From assembly GCA_017302895.1 (NCBI GenBank), contig JAFLBV010000002.1, positions 372,001-436,000 of the forward strand: 64,000 nt of DNA. The letters are read 5' to 3'. Numbering within the stretch: the first letter of the stretch is position 1; each line of letters opens with the position of its first letter. Below, one piece after another: positions 5,076-48,957 of the stretch. The notes under the pieces are model-generated. The model did no database searches. It saw only the letters and a program-made list of their open reading frames with translations, and was not told where the DNA came from. The position numbers and the translations under genes are program-made. Source of the DNA: Ignavibacteria bacterium (GTDB lineage: Bacteria > Bacteroidota > Ignavibacteria > Ignavibacteriales > Ignavibacteriaceae).

Positions 5076-8000
5076 ATGCCGCAGGATCAATTAGCCAGGT
5101 TTTTAGATGAACAATATGTAATTTCTGACTTGCCATACCTCGAGATTGGCGACTCAATCGTCCTTTCAGGTAACACATACAAAATCATCGAATCTTTCTA
5201 CAATATAGATTTTTTGCCTGATGGATTTTACTACAAAGCTTCAAACAGCGATAATGAAAATTTCCTCATAAAGCTGCTTTTCAAATTTAGAAATGTAGCC
5301 AACGAACCAAAACCTGTGGTACACTCCGGACTAACCGGTTTGTCTCATGAGTCCCTTGCCGTTCCCGTGGAATTTGGTACCGGAATCAAGAAATACAACT
5401 TCAAATATTGTTTCGAGATTTACGAGCTTCCGGGTGATGTGGTGCCTTTGGTTAATGTTGATATCGCAGCCGGTGCAGTAAGAAATGGTCTTCTTCCGCA
5501 AATGAAAAACCTTCTCGAATATTTGCACGAAAATGATTTTTATCTTCCCCACTTGCATTTGTGCAATTTATTTGTTTCTCCGGGAAAGTCACCGAGAATA
5601 GTGTTATTTGGTTACGGTCATGCATTGATGAAGAGTAAATTTCCGTTCATCGAAAAGACCTCTTTCTCCGAAGGAAACCTCTGCAGATATTATTATTCGC
5701 CTGAAATCATCGAAGGTCTCTATTCTGAAACCAGCGACTATTATTCCGTGGGTATGATTTTGTTGCGACTGTTTTATCCGGAGACTTTTGACTCTGCAGT
5801 CTATCGCTCGATCGTTCGGAATGGCGAAGAACTAAAACCGATTATCGATTACAAAACCGACCTTTATGAGGTCAATACGATTATTGAAGGATTGACCCTG
5901 CATGAGGAACTGAACCGCTTTTCCTCAAAGGAAATTGAAGACCTGATAGCCGGAAAACGGGTCGTCCCCCTCTATTACGGGAGTTTCTTCCTCTTTAAGG
6001 ACGATTTTGGTGAAGTCAAGCTTCACAACCTTGGCGATTTTGTCGAGCTGGTTAAATCGGAACCTGAAAGATTTCTTTCGTTCAGCAAAGCGCCTCAAAA
6101 TCTTAAAGCTCTCTCCGACTGGTTTAATGGTCTCGAAGGGGTTAAAGATATTGCGGGACTGAAAAAGAGGATCATCAGGTATCAAAATATTTCGCCAAAA
6201 TATTTCATCGAGGTCATTCTTCGTCACCTCCTTCCCACCAAAAGTCTGATTCTGAATGAGATCGAATTCGATTTTTCCGATAAACCGGAAATCGAAAAGA
6301 ACCTTCAGATATATTTCAGAAATCTTGAACATATTCATTATTACTTCCCTGCTCATGATCTACGCGCTGAACTCTTTTTCTTCCTCCTTGCGGCGAGCGA
6401 AATCAGCGAACCTGATCCAACCGGTTATAAGCTTCTTAGGGACGCAAGGGATACAATCTGCAACATTCTTGAGATTAATCCCGCCGGATTGATCGATTCA
6501 TTCAGTACTCCCGCAATGACAGTTTTTCCTGCCCAATGGGCACGAATATTTCATGCTTTTATCCCCAAAAAGTATTTCAGGTCATTCGAGGGAACGAAGA
6601 TTCAAAACCTCGAGGATTTTGCTTTTTACCTCGCTCAGCATCCTGAGGTGCTTACCGATGAGTTTCACTACTACGATATGATCAAATTTCTTGAAAATTT
6701 CGATGTAACTGACCTGAAGGGAAGAACATACAAAGAAATCGTTTTCGAGATTCTGGACAAAAAAGTGGAATGCGACATCAACATTTCGCGAATTGATGAG
6801 ATCGAAGCCGGCAAATACAAAATGTACTTTTCGTACCGGTATTCTCTCACCAATTTCTTCAAATCACATGGTCTCGAACTTCCCTTCACAACGGAAATAA
6901 AACAGCAGTACAATTATGAGTTCAAGAAAAAGGGACTAAAATCTGCCTCCCAGACCATAAAGCATTTCTTCTCGCATCTTGAAAAAGAATACTCCGTTAA
7001 AATCGAAAAAATTACCGAGGAGAAGAAAAGTGAGATAGCAAACCAGTTTAATGAAATTCTGGCAACTAAAATCAGGTGGCAAACAATCCTTGTAAACATA
7101 CTTATTATTGCCGGTACAGGTTATCTGATATCGGAATTCGGATCGGGTCTTGTCTTGAATGAAAAGATGAAGTGGTACCTTAATTTGATGCCCGATTTCG
7201 AATTCTTTGCTACCAAACTGTTACCGTATATCTTTATGACGGGATTTGTGACAATGCTCTATGTCCTGTCGCAAAACCTGAAACTATTCGGATTTATCGT
7301 CTTTGCTCTGCTTCTTGTAACAGGTGGAGCAACCTGGTTTGTGTATGACAAAGGCAGTAAAGCTATCGAAGAGGATGTCAGTCTGAAAAAATTGATCCTT
7401 ACAGATCTTTATACAGGGCGCTCTGCAGAGACGAAACCTGAAGTAATCACTCCGAAGGAAATGGTTGCACTTTTTGATTTAACATTTGGAATTGTAAATC
7501 CCGGATACAAACCTCTCGTTCAATATTCAGTTAATCAGGAGAGATTTCGGGTTAAATCAAACAGCAGGGTTGTTTCCCGTACTCTCCGAAAATTACAGGA
7601 TGATTCCTGGGCGGCCAAGTTTGATTTCATCGACAATTTCGCTCTCCCGCTGGAAAGAACTGTTGGAACTGTTCAGATACCCGATAATAACGGATTTTTT
7701 AACAGTCTCGGCTACTTTGGATTTAATTTAAAAATGAGTAATATAAAAATTGAAGGTGGCGAAAATTCAATTTTTGGTATTGCTTTCAACAGATACTACC
7801 TGATAATTACGAAATCTGAAGTAAAACTCCTTAAAAAAGAGGAAGAAAATAAAGGTGATAAACACGAATTTTTGCTTCTGAGCGAGATGACAGGTTACGA
7901 TTATTCAATTGAAGCTTCCGGTCCCGACAGAGAGGTTATGCCGGCAGGGGTGCTCGAAAAATTGTTTACTGAAAAAGAACTTGTAAAGGAGAAACAGGAG

Positions 8001-37037: not shown

Positions 37038-38675
37038 ATGAAAATACTTTATTCTTCAGCCGAGTCGCTGGCGCAACAACTTAAAGTGTACCTTGCCCCC
37101 GGTGGGATGATTATTCACTCCGCTCAGGATGGTTTGCTTGATTCAGTCAAACTCGAAAAACCCTCAGCTATTATACTTCTGCCTGATGAAGTGAATATTG
37201 ATGTTTTACTTGCTGTCAGGTTCGCCTCCCCTTCATCATTCATTATTGTCGCCGGATCGGATCTGCCTTCTGACTGGTTAAAAGAACTGTTTAACCATAA
37301 TTGCATTCACTTTTTTCTTGATGAACGAAATATTGATTCTGAATCGGATCTTCTAAAACATTCGTTCTGGAGCCATTATTTCGTTCGAAGAAAAATCGAT
37401 CAAACGGAAAACCGTACTGAGTATTTCTTTGCCAGAATAAAATTCCTGCATGAGATTACCATAAAGATGCTCGAAAACAAACCTCTTGGAAGACTTCTTG
37501 ACGAGATAATGCTTGCAAGTCAACATGTTCTCGATGCTGAAAAAAGCTCATTTATGCTTTATGACCCCAAAGACGGACTTCTTCATTTCCATGTTCTTGA
37601 GGGAGCATCTGAAAATATTATAAAGGACCGGCCACTCGAGCTTGGTAGTGGAATTGCCGGCTGGGTTGCGAAACACAGAATTGCCCAACTCGTGGATGAT
37701 TGCTACACCGACAAAAGGTTCAACCCGAATTTTGATAAAATATCCAATTTTAGAACCCGCAATATGGTTTGTGCCCCAATCATTAAAAATGATATGCTGC
37801 TCGGGGTGATTTCTGTTCTAAACAAGAGGGGTGACAGTAAATTTCTGGTCGAGGATGTACAATTGCTGGAAACTCTCGCCGGTCAATGTGCTGTAGCTAT
37901 CGAAAATGCACGGCTGCTCGATTCAAAGATCGAAAATGAGGCAATTAAAAAAGAACTCGAGATGGCTTTTAAGATACAGCAAAAATTACTTCCGAGCGAA
38001 TTGCCTGTTTTCAAATCACTTTCTGTGTCAGCTAAATTGATTCCGGCTCAGGAAGTCGGTGGTGATTACTATTCTGTTCACAGGTTATCTGAGAACCGTT
38101 GTCTGTTGATGGTCGCAGATGTGTCCGGCAAAGGCATACCCGCCGCACTTCTTGTCTCAACAATTGATGCCACTCTCCACACAATAATAAAACTCAAAGG
38201 AGATGACCTCGATCCAAAATTTATCGCGGAAACTATCAATTCAGTACTCTGTGATGTTACTACAAGTGAAAAATTTGCCACTGCCTGGATTGGGATTCTT
38301 GATATGAATTCCGGAATTCTAAAAAGTATAAACGCCGGGCACAACGAACCGATACTGTTCAAATCCTCCAATTCATCAATTATCAGATTGCGAAAGGGAG
38401 GGATTTTTCTGGGTGTGGTACCTTTCGATTATGAAGTGGAGACACTCGAGTTTTCAAAAGATGATATTATAGTATTCTTCTCTGATGGTGTTGTTGAAGC
38501 CATGGATACGAGGCTGAATCTCTATTCCGATAAAAAACTGGTGGAATTGGTACAACAGAATTCCCATCTCTCTTCAGGTGAACTTGTTGATATGATTGTT
38601 AAAGATGTTTTGCACCATGAGGAGAACACTCAACAAAGCGATGATATAACCATTTGCATTGCAAAGGGTTTGTAA
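37038..38675 (+). CDS. GAF domain PP2C (SpoIIE/RsbU-type) phosphatase with degenerate N-terminal receiver-like region
   Basis: A 545-residue cytoplasmic phosphatase. Residues 1-110 resemble a receiver fold without a clear phospho-accepting aspartate. A GAF domain follows (about 150-297; LASQHVLDAEKSSFMLYD, GSGIAGWVAKH, VISVLNKRG), then a coiled linker with MAFKIQQKLLPSELP and a SpoIIE/PP2C core (about 345-543) with metal-binding motifs EVGGDYY, VADVSGKGIPAALL, INAGHNEP and FSDGVVEAMD. Such enzymes usually dephosphorylate anti-sigma-factor antagonists. No anti-sigma gene is nearby; instead the next genes are ion transporters, 50 nt downstream. Confidence 0.88.
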   Translation: MKILYSSAESLAQQLKVYLAPGGMIIHSAQDGLLDSVKLEKPSAIILLPDEVNIDVLLAVRFASPSSFIIVAGSDLPSDWLKELFNHNCIHFFLDERNIDSESDLLKHSFWSHYFVRRKIDQTENRTEYFFARIKFLHEITIKMLENKPLGRLLDEIMLASQHVLDAEKSSFMLYDPKDGLLHFHVLEGASENIIKDRPLELGSGIAGWVAKHRIAQLVDDCYTDKRFNPNFDKISNFRTRNMVCAPIIKNDMLLGVISVLNKRGDSKFLVEDVQLLETLAGQCAVAIENARLLDSKIENEAIKKELEMAFKIQQKLLPSELPVFKSLSVSAKLIPAQEVGGDYYSVHRLSENRCLLMVADVSGKGIPAALLVSTIDATLHTIIKLKGDDLDPKFIAETINSVLCDVTTSEKFATAWIGILDMNSGILKSINAGHNEPILFKSSNSSIIRLRKGGIFLGVVPFDYEVETLEFSKDDIIVFFSDGVVEAMDTRLNLYSDKKLVELVQQNSHLSSGELVDMIVKDVLHHEENTQQSDDITICIAKGL

Positions 38676-38725
38676 AAATTGGCAATTTATTTAGTATGTT
38701 TCAAAGTTTGATTTAAATATTTCCG

Positions 38726-39970
38726 ATGCAAACTTTATATCTTTTTATCCTCGTTCTCTTTTTTGGCTATCTCGTAACCGGACTGGTTCTTAGGAAGATA
38801 TCCAATAAGAATTATTTCCCCACCGGGACCGAGTATATCATTCTGGGAATCATACTCAGTCCTGCATTTTTTTCCCTCATAAATCAGTTTCTTCCGGAAA
38901 ATTTTCAATCGCAAACAGGACCCGGGCTTATTCCCGCTTTGTCTCCTTTTATGAGCGCTGCCACAGGGTTCCTCGGCTTTTATTTTGGGATGCACTTCAA
39001 CATTGTGGAGCTGCTTAAGACCAATCGTGAAAGTGTCAGAATCGCATTATATGATTCACTGTTTTCTCCTCTTCTAACGGGAGCAGCGACTTTCGCAATC
39101 CTGGTTTACTTTTTCCCTGATAAACTGGATACATCTCAAATTCTTGCAGCATCAGCCGCATTGGCAATTATTATCTCACTCTCGACCCCCTTCTTCATCG
39201 ATAAATTGAAGGTTGAACATTCCATCTCAGGAAAACTGACAGAATCAATGCAGATCGCCACCAGGTTCTCGAAGTTCTTCTCCATTCTCCTGTTCGGGAC
39301 AATCTTTCCCCTGTACCACTCAAGTCAGAGTACCGGACCCGAAATAACATCAACTGAATTTTTAGTTATCAGTCTCGGTATTGCTGTTGCCGGAGGAGTT
39401 CTCTTTTTCGTTTTTCTCGGCAGGGAATCGAATCAGCAAAAGATTGTCACCGGTACTTTAGGCATTACTTTACTGGGAGGTGGCATTGCGTATTACCTGG
39501 GAATTTCCCCGCTTGCTCTCTGTTTTATCATTGGAGTACTGGCAGGCAATTTTTCCAAAATTAAAAGTGAAATCCTTGCTTCAATCGAAGACCTCGTTTA
39601 TCCTGTTTCTCTTGTAACTGTCATTTTTGCCGGAATGTTATGGTCTCTGCCGGACAGTGAAATTTCGTGGGTAATAATCCTGATTCTGCCAATAGTCAAA
39701 GTGTTTTCAAAAATTCTTAGCCACAAAACCGCCATTAGTGCTGCTTTCGATAAAAAAAGTGTTAATAATCGTCAATTTGAAATTTTTCTTCCGAATGATA
39801 TACTGATTTTTTCACTTCTGATCAACTATGCCACTGTGATAAACAATTCATTGACTTCCATCGTTATTAATACAGCCATTATCTCGGCAGTAATATTTAA
39901 TTTTTCAGGCAGTCATGCCGCAAAAAGATTTCTTGTTGAGTCAGACGAAATCCGGGGAGAAGTAAAATGA
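38726..39970 (+). CDS. CPA2-type cation/proton antiporter-like membrane protein
   Basis: A polytopic membrane protein of 414 residues with about 11-12 hydrophobic segments. The arrangement resembles the membrane domain of Kef/CPA2 antiporters, with FLGFYFGMHFNIVELL in the position of the conserved F-x-G-L/M-x-x motif, and two repeated halves. There is no RCK or NAD-binding domain. It is less conserved than the next gene and may be a partner subunit. ATGA overlaps the next start codon by 4 nt. Confidence 0.7.
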   Translation: MQTLYLFILVLFFGYLVTGLVLRKISNKNYFPTGTEYIILGIILSPAFFSLINQFLPENFQSQTGPGLIPALSPFMSAATGFLGFYFGMHFNIVELLKTNRESVRIALYDSLFSPLLTGAATFAILVYFFPDKLDTSQILAASAALAIIISLSTPFFIDKLKVEHSISGKLTESMQIATRFSKFFSILLFGTIFPLYHSSQSTGPEITSTEFLVISLGIAVAGGVLFFVFLGRESNQQKIVTGTLGITLLGGGIAYYLGISPLALCFIIGVLAGNFSKIKSEILASIEDLVYPVSLVTVIFAGMLWSLPDSEISWVIILILPIVKVFSKILSHKTAISAAFDKKSVNNRQFEIFLPNDILIFSLLINYATVINNSLTSIVINTAIISAVIFNFSGSHAAKRFLVESDEIRGEVK

Positions 39971-42900
39971 TTTCGTACTTCAGAAAATTTGCAGTCTTGG
40001 GGATTTTATTCGGGCTGATGCTACTCACTCTGAATATTGGTTCTTCTCAGAGTCTCATATACCCTAAGATGATAGCAATTCTTGGATTTATAATTCTTGC
40101 TTCTTCCACAATTGGCGATCTTTTTCAGAGTCTGTCACTCCCCAGAGTGCTTGGATATCTGATCTGTGGAGCACTTTTCGGGTTACCATTTTTCCAACTC
40201 TCGGATATCCCCGAACTCAATCTGATGACAGAAGCAGTTGTTGGTAATTTAACCTTTGTCGCGAACATCGCACTCTCATTTATTGCATTTTCCGCCGGTC
40301 TGGAACTGAAGCGGACTAAAGTATCGGGAATTTACAAAAATGCTCTCCTGACAATCGGGTTCAAGGTGTTTTTTGTTTCACTGTTTGTCGGTGGTGGAGT
40401 TTTCGTCCTCTTCCCTCTCCTTTCTGAAACCAGTTTTACTACTGACTATCTGCTCTTCTCGGGGATTCTCATTTCCGTTCTGGCTATGGGATCTTCTGTG
40501 GAATTCACAAAAGCTGCATCATATGATGAGGATGGAGAAAACCGGTTGCTCGATTTCACCATGGGTACTGTTGCTTTTAAAGAAATTTTCAATCTTCTGT
40601 TGATAGCCGGTTCATTCTACTTTTTAGCCACAGTACAATCATTTACTTCTCCTTCATTTTCACCCGACTACATTCAAAGTATTCTTTCTGACCTTCTGCT
40701 TTCTCTGCTTGCCGGTATGATTTTAGGAATTCTTACAATATCATATGTCAGATTAGTTAAGAGTGAAATTTCATTTTTTCTCATTGTTTTTGTTATGGCA
40801 GGAAGTTATGGCTCAACACTTCTTAACCTTCAGCCATTGATTGTTTTCCTGGTTGCAGGAATTGTTTCGGTGAACTTCACCAAAGATTTTGACTTTAAGT
40901 CCCATATCATAAATTTTAATCTCCCTGTCTTTTTAGTGTTTTTTACCCTGCTTGGGGCATCTCTGAATTTCTCCCACATACTGCCGGCGCTCTTCCCCGC
41001 TTTTATACTTTTCCTGCTTAGAGTTGTCGCGATTTATATTTCAGTAAAGATTTCTTCGGGAATCACTGAGATGTCGGCACAAACCGGCAGATATGGATGG
41101 GCTGGTTTTATTTCACCAAATATGACCCTTACAGCTCTCATTCTTTTGACTATCTCTTCACTCTCGATCGGTTCCCCTTTTGTCACAGGAGTGATTTACG
41201 ACTTTTTCCTCCTGAACTTGTTTTTGGGTCCATTACTCTTTAAACTTGCTCTCGTGCTAAACAACAAACCCGTAAGTCCTGTATTTGAAGAGAAAAGTAC
41301 GCCCGAACCTGAAAAAGAAATTGTCGAAAAATTAGAAACTGTTGAAAAAGATTATCGAATCGTTTTCTCTGAACCAAATTTCATTGATCCTGATCTCAAT
41401 AAAATTCTCTTCGATCTCTATTTCAAAGTTGTAGAACTCGCGAATGAGTTTAGAGACACCTTTATCTCCAAAAGAAATTTTGAGACAGAAGAAATATTGA
41501 ATGAGACCATTGCACTCTACAGGAACATGTTTTCGAGCATCGAGTCGATTCTCCTGTCAGGCAAAGAACCCAGAGCTATAAAATCGACTCTGCAAAGTCT
41601 CAGGATCAATCAAACCGAGGTGCTGCTGCACAAACTTGATGAGCGTAAAAATATTGAACGGGAATTTGCCAATTCCGATACTCTCATCAAAAGACTCCTA
41701 AATGAAGTGATGCAACTTACCGACGGGCTCTCTGAAGAGTACCCTCTCGATGTGGAGATAGATTACGCCACCTATTCAAAAAAACCTGTTTCATTTCAGT
41801 TTTTTATACTCAAACTTAAAGTCAAAGCTTTTTTCCAGACCTTTTTTACAGGGCGTCACGAAGCTGTAGTTAAGGTTAATCTCAAAAATATTGCCAGATA
41901 TTATCTGAATTCAAAAGCAACCCACGAATTGTTGGAAACCCTGAATTTAACAGGTGCCGACAGGTTGAACCTGTTCAGAAAATTAAAAGCGATACACAAG
42001 AATTATATCAGTTACCTCGATGAATTAATTCTACTGATTGGCCAGGAAAGAAGCAGCCTCGGATTCGTAACTGTTTTCTTCATGCGTTATGAAGAACTGA
42101 AAGCAATGTTTTTTAATGAACTCGATGTTTATAACTCGGAACAATCTTCAACTGTTCAGGAAATTGAAAAAAGACTAAGTTACGCTTTTGCATCTCCCTA
42201 CAATTCACTCCTCGATGAAATTGCCGATATCATGCTGGTTAAAAAGCGTGGTGATGAGTTAAACTTCCTCGAAGCTTTTGAGAATGCACAGTTGGAGAAG
42301 GAAAAACTCCTCGACTCCATCAGACACTGGGTAATATATTATCAAGGCATTATCGGGTTAATTCAGAAAGAGCTGTATATTTATCGATTCGAAATTCAGC
42401 TTAACAATTTTATCGACAGAGCCTTGTTAAATCTGGCAGATGAAGTTAGTGACAGAATCCGTGCCGGATGTCCTAAAGTTGCTGATCAGTTTAGAACTTT
42501 TTCAAAAGAACTTGGTGAACTGATTCCCCTCGGTTACAGCGCTTTGAAGATCTATTCTGACAGTTTCAGAATGTCGTTCGCAATACCCGAGCTCACTTCC
42601 CTAATAAGAGATCTGGAAAAAACTGCCCGCAGCCGTAAAATCAGAACTTTTTTTGATACACTGATCAATGGAATTAAGTCAGTCTCACTCGGGTTGCCGG
42701 AAGAATCTGTTTTCCTGGACGAGAGTGAGTTGGTGCTCCCGAACCGTACACCGGAGTTCAAAGAGCTTAAAACTTACAAAATAAGATCGCTCACCTCCCA
42801 TTTTCTTCTTTTGAAACTGCCGAGGGAGATTGGCGAAGTTAACGAGTTTCTCGTCAACTATATCGATGGAGCCCTGAAAGAAATTCGTAACCTCGAGTCA

Positions 42901-44463
42901 AGTATCAACTACTATTTCGATTCGATGGTAAAAAGACTGCAGGAGGATCCGGATGATCACGACAGTGTAAAAGCAATTCTTGAATCCCTGGATGAAAATT
43001 TCATCTCCCGTCTAAGAGAAATTGAAAACAACAACGATAAACTTGAACTTGCGATTAATAAGCAGGTGGCAAGTAAAACTGCTTTTGCTGTTACCGAAGT
43101 TAAAAGATTGATTTCCCTCTCTGCGGTCAACTACCAAAGTTCTGCGCTTGATTCAGAGAAATTCAGATTAAAAGTTTACTATTCGTTGAGAAAAGTAAAG
43201 GTACTTACGAAGAGATTCTTTCGCTCCATCTATATTTCTGTTAAACACACCCTTTCCCGTTTTGTCTTCCCCCTGTTTAAAAGAGGTGTCGAAAACTTAA
43301 AATATCTTTCAGGACGATTGACAGTAAATTATCGTGAAGACCTCTTCAAAACCCAGGAGATTCTTAATTCCCTCCCATTTATCTACAGACGCCTTTTTGA
43401 CGGCACATCGCTTGAATCAAGCGAACTGTTTCTCGGGAAGGATGAAATAAAGTCTATCGTAAATCAGGCAAAAGAGAGATTCAAGGCAAAACTCCCGGCT
43501 TCAATCCTTATTACCGGCGCACCCGGATCCGGCAAAACTTCATATATCTACTATATTAAAAAGGATTTGTTGCAACCCGGTGAGTATATCGAACTCTATT
43601 TTCTTGAAAGAATAAGTACGGTAGACGAACTCAGACGACTGATCTCGGATGCTCTTGGTTACAATGAACTCAAAACAGTTGAAGCAATTATCATCGATTT
43701 AAATGAGAGATTCAGGAATAAATTTGTTCTGCTTATCAACCTGAACAAGACTTTTGTGAGGACTGTCGATGGCTTCGAGGCTTTGAAGACAATGCTCTAC
43801 ATAATCTCGATGACAAGTTCAAATGTACTTTGGGTGGCTACAATTCAAAGTATCGGCTGGCAGTTCATAAAAACAAACTTCAAGGCAGCGTCACTTTTTA
43901 ACTTCTCTGTCTCTTTGGAAGAGTTGAACAAACACAGGATAAAGGACATTATCCTCCACAGACAGCACACCACCGGTTTTGCTTTCAGATTCACCCGGGA
44001 TGACCTCTATCTGTTGAGAAAAAGATTGTTTAAGTCATCCAAACCTGTTGAGGATCAATCATACCTGGAACAGGTCTATTTCGAGCGTCTGACCGAATAT
44101 GCCGACGGTAATATTGTAGCAGGTATGAACTATTGGCTGAATTCAATCTCGAAGATCGAGGAAAACACACTCGTAATTCACACTTACAAGTCTTTTCCAC
44201 TTATCGACCTTTCTTTCCTCGATATTTCCATGATTACCGTTCTGTATACTGTAATGCTGCATGGTGGTCTGAAGAGGAGTCAACTGGCACAGTCATTGAA
44301 TATTTCTGAAAAACAGGCAGGAGAATACCTGGAAAAACTTCTCTCTCTGAACCTCTTGAGGATTGGTGAATTGAGTAAAAGCCATGACTACTATTATATA
44401 AACAAATTCAAGTTCAAATCAGTACAGAATGAACTTCAAAAACGGAATATACTGCCATGGTAA
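39967..44463 (+). CDS. Giant CPA2 antiporter fused to a P-loop ATPase and winged helix
   Basis: One chain of 1498 residues with four parts. Residues 1-435 are a multi-span CPA2-type antiporter domain (LSLPRVLGYLICGALFG, ALSFIAFSAGLELK, VLAMGSSVEFTKA). Residues about 436-1175 are a long, mostly helical and charged cytoplasmic region with coiled-coil character and no family I recognise. At about 1177-1380 there is an AAA/STAND/ORC-like ATPase with a full Walker A GAPGSGKTS (from Gly1184; Lys1190), a Walker B-like FVLLINLNK near 1252 in which the acidic residue is Asn, and a sensor-like NVLWVATIQS. The last 70 residues (about 1430-1498) look like a winged helix (LKRSQLAQSLNISEKQAGEYLEKLLSLNLL). 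No stop or frameshift interrupts it. An ATP-dependent gate or regulator of the antiporter is a fair inference. Confidence 0.75.
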   Translation: MISYFRKFAVLGILFGLMLLTLNIGSSQSLIYPKMIAILGFIILASSTIGDLFQSLSLPRVLGYLICGALFGLPFFQLSDIPELNLMTEAVVGNLTFVANIALSFIAFSAGLELKRTKVSGIYKNALLTIGFKVFFVSLFVGGGVFVLFPLLSETSFTTDYLLFSGILISVLAMGSSVEFTKAASYDEDGENRLLDFTMGTVAFKEIFNLLLIAGSFYFLATVQSFTSPSFSPDYIQSILSDLLLSLLAGMILGILTISYVRLVKSEISFFLIVFVMAGSYGSTLLNLQPLIVFLVAGIVSVNFTKDFDFKSHIINFNLPVFLVFFTLLGASLNFSHILPALFPAFILFLLRVVAIYISVKISSGITEMSAQTGRYGWAGFISPNMTLTALILLTISSLSIGSPFVTGVIYDFFLLNLFLGPLLFKLALVLNNKPVSPVFEEKSTPEPEKEIVEKLETVEKDYRIVFSEPNFIDPDLNKILFDLYFKVVELANEFRDTFISKRNFETEEILNETIALYRNMFSSIESILLSGKEPRAIKSTLQSLRINQTEVLLHKLDERKNIEREFANSDTLIKRLLNEVMQLTDGLSEEYPLDVEIDYATYSKKPVSFQFFILKLKVKAFFQTFFTGRHEAVVKVNLKNIARYYLNSKATHELLETLNLTGADRLNLFRKLKAIHKNYISYLDELILLIGQERSSLGFVTVFFMRYEELKAMFFNELDVYNSEQSSTVQEIEKRLSYAFASPYNSLLDEIADIMLVKKRGDELNFLEAFENAQLEKEKLLDSIRHWVIYYQGIIGLIQKELYIYRFEIQLNNFIDRALLNLADEVSDRIRAGCPKVADQFRTFSKELGELIPLGYSALKIYSDSFRMSFAIPELTSLIRDLEKTARSRKIRTFFDTLINGIKSVSLGLPEESVFLDESELVLPNRTPEFKELKTYKIRSLTSHFLLLKLPREIGEVNEFLVNYIDGALKEIRNLESSINYYFDSMVKRLQEDPDDHDSVKAILESLDENFISRLREIENNNDKLELAINKQVASKTAFAVTEVKRLISLSAVNYQSSALDSEKFRLKVYYSLRKVKVLTKRFFRSIYISVKHTLSRFVFPLFKRGVENLKYLSGRLTVNYREDLFKTQEILNSLPFIYRRLFDGTSLESSELFLGKDEIKSIVNQAKERFKAKLPASILITGAPGSGKTSYIYYIKKDLLQPGEYIELYFLERISTVDELRRLISDALGYNELKTVEAIIIDLNERFRNKFVLLINLNKTFVRTVDGFEALKTMLYIISMTSSNVLWVATIQSIGWQFIKTNFKAASLFNFSVSLEELNKHRIKDIILHRQHTTGFAFRFTRDDLYLLRKRLFKSSKPVEDQSYLEQVYFERLTEYADGNIVAGMNYWLNSISKIEENTLVIHTYKSFPLIDLSFLDISMITVLYTVMLHGGLKRSQLAQSLNISEKQAGEYLEKLLSLNLLRIGELSKSHDYYYINKFKFKSVQNELQKRNILPW

Positions 44464-45518
44464 ATTTCAAACCTCTGCTGGTCTTGTTCTTGTTTTGTGC
44501 CATGCACCTTGCGGGTGTTTCACAATCTGTGGAAAAAATCAAAAAGGACTCTGCCGGACACACGATTTTACCGGTCAAAGACAGCGTTTTAAGAATTGAT
44601 ACGATAGTTCGAATCGACAGCGTGTACATTTTTGACACAGTAAGAATTACCGATCAGAAAACCGCCAGAGACAGCAACTTTTTCCCGACATCTTTTATCA
44701 TCGTGGATTCATCATCTAACAAGCTCCCCTCTCTCGATGATATGGTGAACTCAATAAATTTCGTAAAACAGTTGGGGATCTTCAAACTCGTTCTGATTCT
44801 CTTCATTATTGCGATCGCATCAGGTTTGACTTTTGCATTCAGGATTCTCTCAAAATATCTTTCGTTCAAGGGAGAAAAGTTTGGTAGAATTCTGAAAGTC
44901 ATCTCTGTGGCAAGAACATTTGTTTGGATTGTGACATTTTATTTGATTCTTAAGCTGGTTTTTGTCCAGACTCAATTCCTTCTCCTTCTCTTTATTCTCA
45001 TATCACTCGTTCTTTTGGGGATTGCAGCACTGCCACTACTCGGCAATTTGCTGGGGAGGCTTTTTATCCTCTCAGGAAACATGTTCAATCATAATGACTA
45101 CATAAAAGCCGGACTGCATAGAGGATTCGTTCAGGAAATCGGATTAAAACATGTAACCATTCTGAGTGATGAAGGATCAGCCATTTTTATTCCTAATTCA
45201 TACTTTATCAACAACCCTTTTGAAAATGTAAGCAGAGGTAAAAAGGAAGAGCAGATCTCGCTTGATTTTGACTTCCCGTCTAAGTATGATCCTGAAAGAG
45301 TGCTCGGAATCCTGAAGGAAGCGGCGATATCAAATCCTTATTTGTACATCAATAAAGAGCCGGAAGTTTTTATTAAACAGGTCGATTTTATTAATGACCG
45401 TTATACAATAAAAGTGAATCTTTATTTGTACGATTCAAACTATATTGACGAATTATATGACTCTATTAATAAATCGGTTTTAGCTAAATTGACCACCGAT
45501 CAATCTGAGAATAAATGA
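44457..45518 (+). CDS. MscS-like mechanosensitive channel
   Basis: A 353-residue protein with a signal peptide (LLVLFLFCAMHLAGVSQS), a short extracytoplasmic segment with the repeated pattern RIDT-RIDS-FDTV, then three membrane helices (about 105-200) and an MscS beta domain with GLHRGFVQEIGLKHVTI, DEGSAIFIPNSYFINNP and a C-terminal alpha/beta domain. The channel would release ions on hypo-osmotic stress. The ATG overlaps the giant antiporter gene by 7 nt and its end overlaps trkH by 4 nt. Confidence 0.85.
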   Translation: MVNFKPLLVLFLFCAMHLAGVSQSVEKIKKDSAGHTILPVKDSVLRIDTIVRIDSVYIFDTVRITDQKTARDSNFFPTSFIIVDSSSNKLPSLDDMVNSINFVKQLGIFKLVLILFIIAIASGLTFAFRILSKYLSFKGEKFGRILKVISVARTFVWIVTFYLILKLVFVQTQFLLLLFILISLVLLGIAALPLLGNLLGRLFILSGNMFNHNDYIKAGLHRGFVQEIGLKHVTILSDEGSAIFIPNSYFINNPFENVSRGKKEEQISLDFDFPSKYDPERVLGILKEAAISNPYLYINKEPEVFIKQVDFINDRYTIKVNLYLYDSNYIDELYDSINKSVLAKLTTDQSENK

Positions 45519-47299
45519 AGAACGAACCAATCAGGCAAAGTACCCAGGCTAAAATTCTTAGAGCCCTGAGAATAATTCTTATTTTTTCTGCAACAGCCGG
45601 ATTTGCGACTATAATCCTCGAGCATGGTTTCCAAATAAATTTTGTTGAGGAAGCGTTAATCAATCTTCTCTCCGTGGCTGTCGTTGGAATCTTCATGATT
45701 TATCAACTGACTAACATCACTTTTGCCGAAAATAAAGGTCAGTTTCTTCGGGCACATCTTTTTGAGTTCCTCATAATTTTCTTCATCATCATAGAGGGGA
45801 TACTGACTTTATCCGGGGTTAGTATTATACAAAATATTGGCACGACATTTAACATTAAGAATATCACTTTTCTTTATGTCGTTCTGGCACAGGCATACAT
45901 TGTAATTGGTATTATTCTCGGAGCAATCAGGTACAATAAAAAGATCCTGGAATCGAAAATACACCCCGCCAGACTCTTTATGCTTAGTTTTGCGGTCACC
46001 ATTCTCATTGGTGCCCTGCTACTGATGTTACCTGCCGCAAGCAATATTCCCGGCGGTTTAAGATTCATTGATGCTTTGTTCACCTCAACAAGCGCTGTTT
46101 GCGTTACCGGATTGACCGTCGTTGACACCGCCATAGATTTTACGAGATTCGGTCAAATAGTGGTCATGTTACTCTTCCAGATAGGTGGACTTGGGTTGAT
46201 GACTTTTACTACTTTTTTCGCAATCTTTCTTTCGGGCGGACTTGGGATCAAGGAAAAATTCATTCTCCGTGAGATGATGCATGAAGATAATATCGGGGCA
46301 ATCGGCAAGGTGCTTTCAAGTCTTATCATTCTTACCTTCACCCTCGAGGGAGTAGGTGCTATGGTTATTTTCTTTTCAATAAAGGATTTTTATCCCGGAA
46401 ATGTTGAAGAAGCGGTATTCAGCAGCATTTTTCACGGTATTTCAGCCTTTTGTAATGCCGGATTTTCGATTTATTCGATGAATCTGGCCGATCCGATGAT
46501 AAAGAACAATTATATCTTCAACACTACAATATCCCTTTTGATCATCTTTGGAGGTTTGGGCTTCACAGCGATTCTAGGAATGCCTAGGTATATCAAAGTC
46601 AATACAAAACCATTGTTCGCAAAATTGAACATGCCTCTGCAGGTTAAAATAGTGTTTCTCACAACGGCTGTGCTGATCGTTGGCGGTACTCTAACAACCT
46701 ATCTTCTGGAAATCAATTCATCGCTGAAGGGATTATCAACTGGTGATGCATTATTCCATTCCTATTTCCAGGCTGTATCGGCCAGAACAGCCGGGTTCAA
46801 CACAATCGACATCTCCGCCTTTACTGACCCGACTACATTCTTCTATTGTTTCCTGATGTTTATCGGTGCCTCTCCCGGTGGTACAGGCGGAGGAATAAAG
46901 ACGACTACATTTACAGTTGTTTTTCTTTCTATTCTGATGTACAGAAACAGTACCAGGGATTTGAGAATAAACAAGAGAACCATCCCAACTGATGTAATAA
47001 ATCTGGCTTTTATGATCTTTTGGCTCTCAGTTTTGTATATACTTCTCGGGGTGTTTATTATGAGTATTTCAGAACCGGGAAAGAAATTTATCGATCTGAT
47101 GTTCGAAGCATTTAGTGCGGCTGGAACGGTGGGATTGTCGAAAGGGGTATCCCCAAACCTCTCGGATGTCGGTAAATTGGTTGACATTCTGTTGATGTAC
47201 ATCGGCAGGATCGGTCCACTGACAATAATTTTTAGTTTTATTGGTGAGAGGGACAGCAGCCGGTACTCTTACCCAAAAGACAACATTTCAATGTTATAA
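45515..47299 (+). CDS. trkH: TrkH/KtrB-family potassium transporter
   Basis: A K+ uptake subunit of 594 residues. The four pore loops are recognised by TSTSAVCVTGLTVVD, SIFHGISAFCNAGFS, AVSARTAGFNTIDIS and FEAFSAAGTVGLSKG, each with the central Gly of the selectivity filter. GGTGGGIKTTTF forms the conserved segment after the third loop. Two or three extra hydrophobic segments at the N-terminus (about 15-130) precede the core, making it longer than KtrB. It works with the RCK protein TrkA encoded 15 nt downstream. Confidence 0.93.
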   Translation: MKNEPIRQSTQAKILRALRIILIFSATAGFATIILEHGFQINFVEEALINLLSVAVVGIFMIYQLTNITFAENKGQFLRAHLFEFLIIFFIIIEGILTLSGVSIIQNIGTTFNIKNITFLYVVLAQAYIVIGIILGAIRYNKKILESKIHPARLFMLSFAVTILIGALLLMLPAASNIPGGLRFIDALFTSTSAVCVTGLTVVDTAIDFTRFGQIVVMLLFQIGGLGLMTFTTFFAIFLSGGLGIKEKFILREMMHEDNIGAIGKVLSSLIILTFTLEGVGAMVIFFSIKDFYPGNVEEAVFSSIFHGISAFCNAGFSIYSMNLADPMIKNNYIFNTTISLLIIFGGLGFTAILGMPRYIKVNTKPLFAKLNMPLQVKIVFLTTAVLIVGGTLTTYLLEINSSLKGLSTGDALFHSYFQAVSARTAGFNTIDISAFTDPTTFFYCFLMFIGASPGGTGGGIKTTTFTVVFLSILMYRNSTRDLRINKRTIPTDVINLAFMIFWLSVLYILLGVFIMSISEPGKKFIDLMFEAFSAAGTVGLSKGVSPNLSDVGKLVDILLMYIGRIGPLTIIFSFIGERDSSRYSYPKDNISML

Positions 47300-47314
47300 T
47301 ATTGAGGTTTTAAT

Positions 47315-48004
47315 TTGAAAAAGAAATATGTAATTATCGGACTCGGTGATCTAGGAAGAAGCATCGCCAAATCACTGGGTAAATCCGGTTCGGAAGTGCT
47401 TGCCATTGATGTCGATGAAGATGCAGTAAACGACATCAAAGATCTTGTGGATACCGCTGTACGAGCTGATTCAACCGACGAAAAGGCTCTTACAATGCTT
47501 GGTATAGATAGTACAGTTGATGCTGCTATTGTCGCCATTGGTCCCGATAAATTTGAGACAACGATCCTTACATCGGTTTTGCTTCTTGAGAAGAAGGTTA
47601 AAAAGGTTGTCGCCCGAGCATCTTCAGAATTACAGGAGAATATTTTAAAGAAACTGGGTGTTCATCAGGTATTGATCCCCGAAGTCCAGGTCGCAAGACA
47701 GATTATCAGTCTTGTCACAAGTCAGGATGTGTTGGACACCATCACACTTGGCGAGGACTACAATATCGTTCATCTGAAAAATCCCAGGGCTTTCATCGGA
47801 AAAAGTCTTCAGGAACTTGACCTCCGGATTCGATATAATGTCAACCTTATCACCATCAAACGAATGTCAAAGAGTTATAAAGGGAGTGCCCAGGAACCTC
47901 ATGTTGAAATTTATGGTGTGCCGACTGCATCCACTATACTCGAGGAAAACGATGTGCTAATTGTCTTTGGACGAGATAAAGACATTAAAAAAATAGTGGA
48001 ATAA
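47315..48004 (+). CDS. trkA: TrkA/KtrA-family potassium uptake regulator (RCK)
   Basis: A cytoplasmic RCK protein of 229 residues, the size of KtrA rather than the doubled TrkA. The N-terminal Rossmann fold binds nucleotide (IIGLGDLGRSIAKSLGKSG, LAIDVDEDAV, DSTDEKAL, AIVAIGPD), and an RCK_C domain follows (about 140-229). It gates the TrkH channel in response to ATP/ADP or NAD(H). The start is TTG at 47315 with GAGG upstream. Its TAA overlaps the ATG of the dehydratase by one base (TAATG). Confidence 0.93.
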   Translation: MKKKYVIIGLGDLGRSIAKSLGKSGSEVLAIDVDEDAVNDIKDLVDTAVRADSTDEKALTMLGIDSTVDAAIVAIGPDKFETTILTSVLLLEKKVKKVVARASSELQENILKKLGVHQVLIPEVQVARQIISLVTSQDVLDTITLGEDYNIVHLKNPRAFIGKSLQELDLRIRYNVNLITIKRMSKSYKGSAQEPHVEIYGVPTASTILEENDVLIVFGRDKDIKKIVE

Positions 48005-48957
48005 TGGACATGTTCCCTTCAGCCAAAGAAGTTTGCGATGCACACCAGAGGATAAATCTGTATGTGCATAAAACTCCTGTTTTAACTTCGAGAAGCATTG
48101 ATGAGCTCGCAGGAGCCTCGCTTTTTTTCAAATGTGAAAATATGCAACGAGGTGGTGCATTCAAAGCAAGAGGTGCATTTAATGCCTCTTTGCAGTTATC
48201 AACTGAAGAACTGGCAAAAGGCGTTGCCACACACTCTTCCGGAAATCACGCCACCGCTCTTAGTCTTGCCGCCCGTACATTGGGCATTCCGGCTTATATC
48301 GTCATGCCATCCAACTCAAAACGGATTAAGATTGCTTCGGTTGAAGCTTTTGGTGGAAAGATTACTTTTTGTGAACCCACACTCCAGGCAAGAGAATCGA
48401 CTCTGGAAGAGATAGTTCAAAAAACAGGTGCTGTTTTCATACCACCCTATGATGACTACCGGATTATTGCCGGACAGGCAACGGCAGCAAAGGAATTGAT
48501 CGAAGAGACGGATAATCTCGATGCCATTATTGCACCGGTTGGAGGTGGCGGTCTGCTTTCAGGCACTGCCCTTTCAGTAAAATATTTCGCCGAAGGATGT
48601 GTTGCTTATGCCGCTGAACCGGCGGGGGCTGATGATGCGTGGAGGTCACTTAAAGCAGGTAAAATTATTCCTTCCATCAACCCTGTCACGATATCTGACG
48701 GGCTGCTGACATCCCTCGGGACACGCAATTTTCCAATAATACAGGAGCTCGTTTCAGAGATAATTCGAGTCGAGGAGAGTGAAATCATATCTGCGATGCG
48801 TCTCCTTTGGGAACGATTGAAAATTGTAGTAGAACCAAGTTCTGCAACAGTCTTAGCCGCTGTATTGAAATCGAGGGAGCTATTCGAAGGTAAAAGAACA
48901 GGTTTGATACTCTCAGGAGGAAATGTCGATCTCTCCGAGATGAAGAATTATTTTTAG
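48004..48957 (+). CDS. PLP-dependent threonine/serine dehydratase or racemase-like protein
   Basis: A fold-type II PLP enzyme of 317 residues. The Schiff-base lysine is K54 in GGAFKARGA; SSGNHATALSLAAR binds the substrate carboxylate; PVGGGGLLSG is the phosphate-binding glycine loop. There is no ACT domain, so it is a catabolic-type threonine dehydratase, serine/hydroxyaspartate dehydratase or serine racemase; sequence alone does not separate them. It is translationally coupled to trkA, an odd partner for potassium uptake unless the transcript simply runs through. Confidence 0.87.
   Translation: MDMFPSAKEVCDAHQRINLYVHKTPVLTSRSIDELAGASLFFKCENMQRGGAFKARGAFNASLQLSTEELAKGVATHSSGNHATALSLAARTLGIPAYIVMPSNSKRIKIASVEAFGGKITFCEPTLQARESTLEEIVQKTGAVFIPPYDDYRIIAGQATAAKELIEETDNLDAIIAPVGGGGLLSGTALSVKYFAEGCVAYAAEPAGADDAWRSLKAGKIIPSINPVTISDGLLTSLGTRNFPIIQELVSEIIRVEESEIISAMRLLWERLKIVVEPSSATVLAAVLKSRELFEGKRTGLILSGGNVDLSEMKNYF

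Follow-up and report, generated by a model that had tools for sequence, protein, structure and literature searches.

An AAA+ ATPase that travels with an MscS-type channel gene across a phylum is, in an Ignavibacteria genome, fused to an antiporter-like membrane domain and set in a conserved five-gene cassette with a second antiporter-like protein, MscS, TrkH and TrkA. From the linkage, gene order, domain composition and predicted class of fold that we observe in and around the window (the whole 64,000-nucleotide stretch of DNA that was analysed), we infer, as a rather probable reading, that the five genes serve as a unit of osmotic and K+ homeostasis with an AAA+ switch protein at its centre, which would be coupled to the MscS valve and to K+ uptake and efflux.

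Locus layout and gene content

The sequence-only reading had described six genes following each other on one strand, a PP2C phosphatase, two CPA2-type antiporters, MscS, TrkH and TrkA, as one ion-homeostasis cluster. An ORF check bore out all six frames on the plus strand at the coordinates claimed (Table 1), and the junctions inside the transporter part are as it gave them, with overlaps of 4 nt (39967-39970), 7 nt (44457-44463) and 4 nt (45515-45518) and a gap of 15 nt (47300-47314). Pfam also agrees with its identification of the phosphatase, MscS, TrkH and TrkA. The PP2C gene is set off from the 414-aa gene by 50 nt. At the other end a PLP dehydratase gene, omitted from that reading, shares 1 nt with the trkA stop. 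Promoter and terminator scans of the cluster gave the same result as shuffled background. The whole locus is also present in a same-genus relative, Ignavibacteriaceae bacterium isolate SB14.

Table 1. Genes of the locus and parts of the 1498-aa fusion protein, in window coordinates
Feature	Coordinates	Strand	Basis
PP2C phosphatase gene (GAF + SpoIIE/PP2C)	37038..38675	+	Pfam
Gene for 414-aa CPA-antiporter-like membrane protein, first of the conserved cassette	38726..39970	+	Profile-profile comparison; low-confidence predicted fold
Gene for 1498-aa fusion: antiporter-like membrane domain, stalk, AAA+ ATPase, winged helix	39967..44463	+	
Fusion N-terminus, CPA/Na_H_Exchanger-like membrane domain (~aa 1-440)	39967..41286	+	14 hydrophobic segments; PF00999 in orthologues
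Stalk of long helices, two similar halves (~aa 475-1115)	41389..43311	+	AlphaFold2 model; hhalign of halves
AAA+ core (~aa 1133-1412)	43363..44202	+	Profile hits; AlphaFold2; fold matches
Walker A, GAPGSGKT	43516-43539	+	Motif in AAA+ core
Winged-helix domain (~aa 1420-1492)	44224..44442	+	Profile search; AlphaFold2 model
MscS-type channel gene, ATPase partner	44457..45518	+	PF00924; adjacency; tree
TrkH gene, long form	45515..47299	+	PF02386
TrkA gene, single KTN/RCK unit, 229 aa (KtrA-like length)	47315..48004	+	PF02254, PF02080
PLP serine/threonine dehydratase-like gene	48004..48957	+	

The window MscS is a small predicted channel (PF00924, 3.3e-14; 53.2 bits against a cut-off of 20.2) with an N-terminal signal-like segment. 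TrkH (PF02386, 5.9e-59) carries about 170 extra N-terminal residues, and both TrkA domains match, so that the pore and the TrkA/KTN subunit are both present. The window genome encodes one TrkH, five MscS, one KdpA and the 1498-aa protein as a single copy; no Kup was found in it.

Membrane domain of the fusion

The membrane-embedded part of the fusion is limited to about the first 440 residues. Its kinship was read from orthologues: PF00999 matches those of the same genus (about 1e-21 in G296 and G297) and that of G298 (4.9e-6), while the window N-terminus on its own had no Pfam match and a PDB profile search with it returned nothing at E 1. At the ion site, eight cassette members have Lys-Asp and the window protein and G298 have Lys-Glu, against Gln-Asp in KefC and Asn-Asp in NhaP. 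The acid is absent at the aligned position from the fusions of G299 and L044, so transport activity in these two is doubtful.

Stalk, ATPase and winged helix

The gene at 39967-44463 had been called simply a second antiporter. That name suits at most its antiporter-like N-terminus, whereas some 70% of the protein is a cytosolic stalk, AAA+ ATPase and winged helix, which the sequence-only reading did not mention. Residues 451-1498 (a 1048-residue model) were predicted with AlphaFold2 from 31 aligned sequences, with mean pLDDT 83 and pTM 0.60. The model begins with the stalk, whose helices are about 50-60 residues long, followed by the AAA+ core and then the winged helix. The stalk spans about 640 aa and its two halves align to each other (hhalign prob 97, E 1.2e-10, a score that coiled-coil-like sequence inflates), so the stalk is probably an internal duplication. 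A fold search with the 1048-residue model was filled by the AAA+ part and gave no known-fold match for the stalk, which is not evidence for a new fold.

By Foldseek and VIA-align the ATPase fold is closest to Orc1/Cdc6, TnsC and STAND/NLR proteins (Z about 14-15), with Apaf-1, NLRC4 and the Sr35 resistosome among its neighbours. A profile search of the region found Cdc6/Orc1 and winged-helix regulators, the winged helix itself resembling MarR and TFIIE domains; in two relatives (L046, L047) the end of that domain fails to align. Walker A is intact in the window protein. At two Walker B positions 60 of 61 aligned relatives keep at least one acid but the window genus has Ile-Asn, so ATP hydrolysis by the window fusion is uncertain. 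Nor can hydrolysis be general to the ATPase family, since the lysine of Walker A has been lost from several of the soluble relatives.

The 414-aa protein

Neither the window 414-aa protein nor its counterpart at locus L032 has a match in Pfam or NCBIfam. Profile-profile comparison finds it remotely similar to the fusion N-terminus (hhalign prob 97.6, E 3e-12), and the best fold matches of its predicted model, which is of low confidence (pLDDT 62), are SOS1, NhaP and NapA. A PDB profile search with the protein gave ZorA matches at chance level only, and these were dismissed. The ion-site acid is absent at the aligned position in 11 of 11 cassette members, with some doubt because the alignment is at about 16% identity. 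The claim of two CPA2 antiporters was thus overstated: the fusion has the acid, preceded by Lys, and the 414-aa protein lacks it. Between G299 and the window, both CPA-like parts share about 22% identity, against 56% for TrkH and 58% for TrkA, a far greater divergence that fits joint change of the two parts. On these sequences it is reasonable to propose that the fusion N-terminus and the 414-aa partner may form a CPA heterodimer of which one half is competent.

The cassette in related genomes

A search with the 414-aa protein matched 14 of 116 genomes of the order. One weak match (G383) lay in an unrelated neighbourhood and was set aside; the other 13, together with G357, which was found through TrkH, make 14 genomes with the cassette, window genome included. 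Four cassettes are incomplete: that of G297 is on a contig fragment, that of G299 lies on two contigs, that of G357 is truncated where its contig stops and in G184 the trkH frame is broken. Wherever contigs reveal the genes, the order 414-aa protein, fusion ATPase, MscS, TrkH, TrkA is kept, even where identity of the fusion protein among carriers falls as low as 28-31%, so that this arrangement has lasted through long divergence. The sequence-only reading had taken scattering of its genes in relatives as the mark of a chance adjacency. Because the five core genes stay in fixed order at such identities, their adjacency is not chance, and there is strong support for a conserved, closely packed unit of ion homeostasis.

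The phosphatase does not share in this result as a general member. Linkage of PP2C and the PLP dehydratase to the cassette is confined to the window genus and G299 (the home family), and PP2C was rejected as a core component after it was not found beside the cassette outside that family. Flanks vary between genera, and those sampled hold mostly ordinary metabolic or transport genes. The cassette is patchy within the order, and TrkH-TrkA pairs with none of the other cassette genes occur in seven genomes (G304, G354, G070, G220, G371, G343 and G331).

ATPase-MscS pairing across the phylum

Of 296 genomes sampled from the phylum, 54 contain the C-terminal ATPase part (58 genomes matched in total, four through the antiporter-like part alone). 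An MscS gene directly adjoins the ATPase gene on the same strand in 57 of the 60 ATPase loci with visible flanks, and mostly the two genes overlap slightly or lie no more than about a dozen bases apart. We estimate the chance of an MscS beside a given gene at well under 1 in 100, from five MscS among several thousand genes. Mostly MscS is the downstream gene, but six loci from four families have it upstream. The loci span 11 families of the phylum and one contig of an uncultured archaeon (L034), where a 355-aa ATPase has MscS directly next downstream; distribution beyond the phylum rests on this single contig. A plasmid search gave only one fragment, at 21% identity. Related genomes are not independent, but a single gene order inherited unchanged from an ancestor does not suffice to explain the link, since the order is reversed in some loci and so many families are involved. 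The three exceptions are L044, L046 and L047, where MscS is not adjacent; at L044 a membrane-ATPase fusion, a 414-like protein, full-length TrkA and TrkH adjoin in a different order, without MscS.

What precedes the ATPase varies: nothing, a CPA-like domain or an SLC12-like one. The last occurs at three loci (L048, L050 and L053), where an AA_permease/SLC12-type transporter is N-terminal to the ATPase in proteins of about 1700 aa, followed by MscS; the SLC12 match is above the cut-off in L050 and just below it in L053. The ATPase is therefore the hub of association, tied to MscS, and the sequence-only reading left out both this phylum-wide pairing and the AAA+/winged-helix module that the second antiporter carries. 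In a tree of MscS proteins the ATPase partners fall in clades matching ATPase architecture and separate from the other four MscS of the window genome (the deep split is weak, 62/92, with several long branches). In 29 loci, covering one whole family, a soluble ATPase-MscS pair occupies one conserved chromosomal site, adjoining amidase and uridine-kinase-type genes, which speaks for a housekeeping function and against a defence island.

Comparison with known systems

KefC/KefB, the CPA2 systems of K+/H+ efflux, likewise join a CPA-type membrane domain (PF00999, in orthologues of the fusion) to a cytosolic nucleotide-binding regulatory part in one chain. In the fusion, however, that part consists of stalk, AAA+ and winged helix instead of a KTN/RCK domain, Lys-Glu or Lys-Asp stands where KefC has Gln-Asp, and the cassette adds the second, acid-less CPA-like protein with MscS and Trk adjacent. 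As in Ktr/Trk K+ uptake, and in other, ordinary pairs within the order, TrkH is adjacent to a single-unit TrkA, but the cassette TrkH is of the long form and its gene follows those of the ATPase fusion and MscS. The window MscS has the beta-domain (PF00924) of MscS channels; what sets it apart from ordinary ones is that it falls in clades encoded beside an AAA+ ATPase. With Orc1/Cdc6, TnsC and STAND/NLR proteins the ATPase shares an AAA+ core followed by a winged helix, whereas here it is joined to a long-helix stalk and, in the window, to a membrane domain, and its partner gene encodes an ion channel rather than a partner of the replication, transposition or sensor-repeat kind. Prokaryotic SLC12-type cation-chloride cotransporters resemble the AA_permease/SLC12 part described above; in the three loci that part is fused to the AAA+ module with MscS next, and the window protein has the CPA-like domain in its place.

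Discussion

MscS channels are classically regarded as passive, tension-gated valves. In the reading that we prefer, the AAA+/winged-helix module would bind nucleotide and so register cytoplasmic conditions (e.g., nucleotide level, ionic strength or crowding) and the long stalk would pass the state of the switch to the neighbouring MscS valve. In the window lineage the switch would be joined to an antiporter-like domain, perhaps in the heterodimer proposed above, and with TrkH/TrkA co-encoded, emergency release would be adjusted jointly with the uptake of K+ and the efflux of K+ or cations.

An ordinary ion-homeostasis operon, in which independent transporters are merely co-expressed and the fusion ATPase regulates the antiporter at most, would account for the tight junctions and for parts that all come from known ion-transport families, and cytosolic regulatory domains are common in KefC-like antiporters. 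We think it unlikely, as in most of the phylum the ATPase-MscS link holds without antiporter, Trk or 414-aa gene, and it outlasts the swap of gene order, so that the ATPase is tied to MscS and not to the antiporter.

Two further readings seem to us improbable. A defence or cell-suicide system, with the STAND-like ATPase as sensor and MscS as pore effector, is suggested by fold neighbours such as Apaf-1, NLRC4 and the Sr35 resistosome, a weak match to the mads_8 ATPase (3e-4), the only one in the PADLOC defence library, the patchy occurrence of the cassette and restriction-modification type genes in two flanks (L048, L036). Mobile defence genes would not be expected to sit at one chromosomal site in 29 loci as the soluble pair does, the remaining sampled flanks hold ordinary metabolic and transport genes, and the association with Trk and transporters is fixed. 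We give just as little credence to the fusion being a membrane-anchored one-component regulator, whose degenerate antiporter-like domain would sense K+ or osmolarity and whose winged helix would bind DNA to control the operon. The likeness to MarR and TFIIE domains fits this, as do the unusual ion-site residues, and in Orc/Cdc6 proteins winged-helix-type domains act on DNA; STAND and NLR proteins, however, have the same domain order and no DNA binding, the end of the winged helix is unaligned in L046 and L047, and the partner common to the loci is a channel gene.

Beyond the window, the AAA+ switch with its valve could well represent a general class of nucleotide-dependent MscS regulators, a proposal that we make tentatively: an AAA+/winged-helix module on a stalk would act on its own MscS, with transporters (CPA-like or SLC12-like) fused and K+ uptake genes added in control of volume and K+. 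The parts are known and the combination appears undescribed; the open-access literature searched contained no description of MscS-AAA+ pairing or of transporter-AAA+ fusions of this type, which is weak evidence. The conserved site of the soluble pair in one whole family makes the idea testable in cultivable, tractable carriers. If it is true, many bacteria would actively set their MscS valve, and the transporter-fused versions would link that valve to K+ and cation-chloride fluxes.

Variant arrangements of the ATPase

The AAA+/winged-helix ATPase, which in the window forms the C-terminal part of an antiporter-like fusion, is joined to an AA_permease/SLC12-type transporter in a single chain of about 1700 aa at three loci of relatives, each with an MscS gene directly after the fusion, overlapping it by 1–4 nt. 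A contig of an uncultured archaeon (L034) encodes a 355-aa version with MscS immediately downstream and a second, divergently oriented MscS gene on its other side. Six loci (L128, L129, L131–L134) have the opposite of the usual order, the MscS gene lying 5′ of the ATPase gene and overlapping it, and their ATPases have lost the Walker A lysine. ATPase relatives at two further loci (L046 and L047) lack MscS, carry arginine for the Walker A lysine, and adjoin large proteins (333/341 aa and 1690 aa) that belong to no Pfam family.

TrkH and the gene after trkA

About five additional hydrophobic segments at the N-terminus make the window TrkH a long form; the relatives G304 and G354 have long forms too, there with TrkA alone. 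The cassette TrkH of G184 is split into two frames, reflecting either decay or an assembly error; its congener G329 has one long frame. The trkA stop and the PLP dehydratase-like gene share 1 nt, and the two genes are still together in the relative G299, where the genes that follow differ from those of the window.

Coordinates of the features discussed
Feature	Locus	Position
ATPase with MscS, archaeal	L034	4223-7257
ATPase relative	L046	6871-12948
ATPase relative	L047	109-9782
Split TrkH	L037 (G184)	5135-6894
Transporter–ATPase fusion	L048	7983-13070
Transporter–ATPase fusion	L050	8533-13644
Transporter–ATPase fusion	L053	8080-13140
TrkH long form, N-terminal part	window	45515-46060
PLP serine/threonine dehydratase-like gene	window	48004-48957
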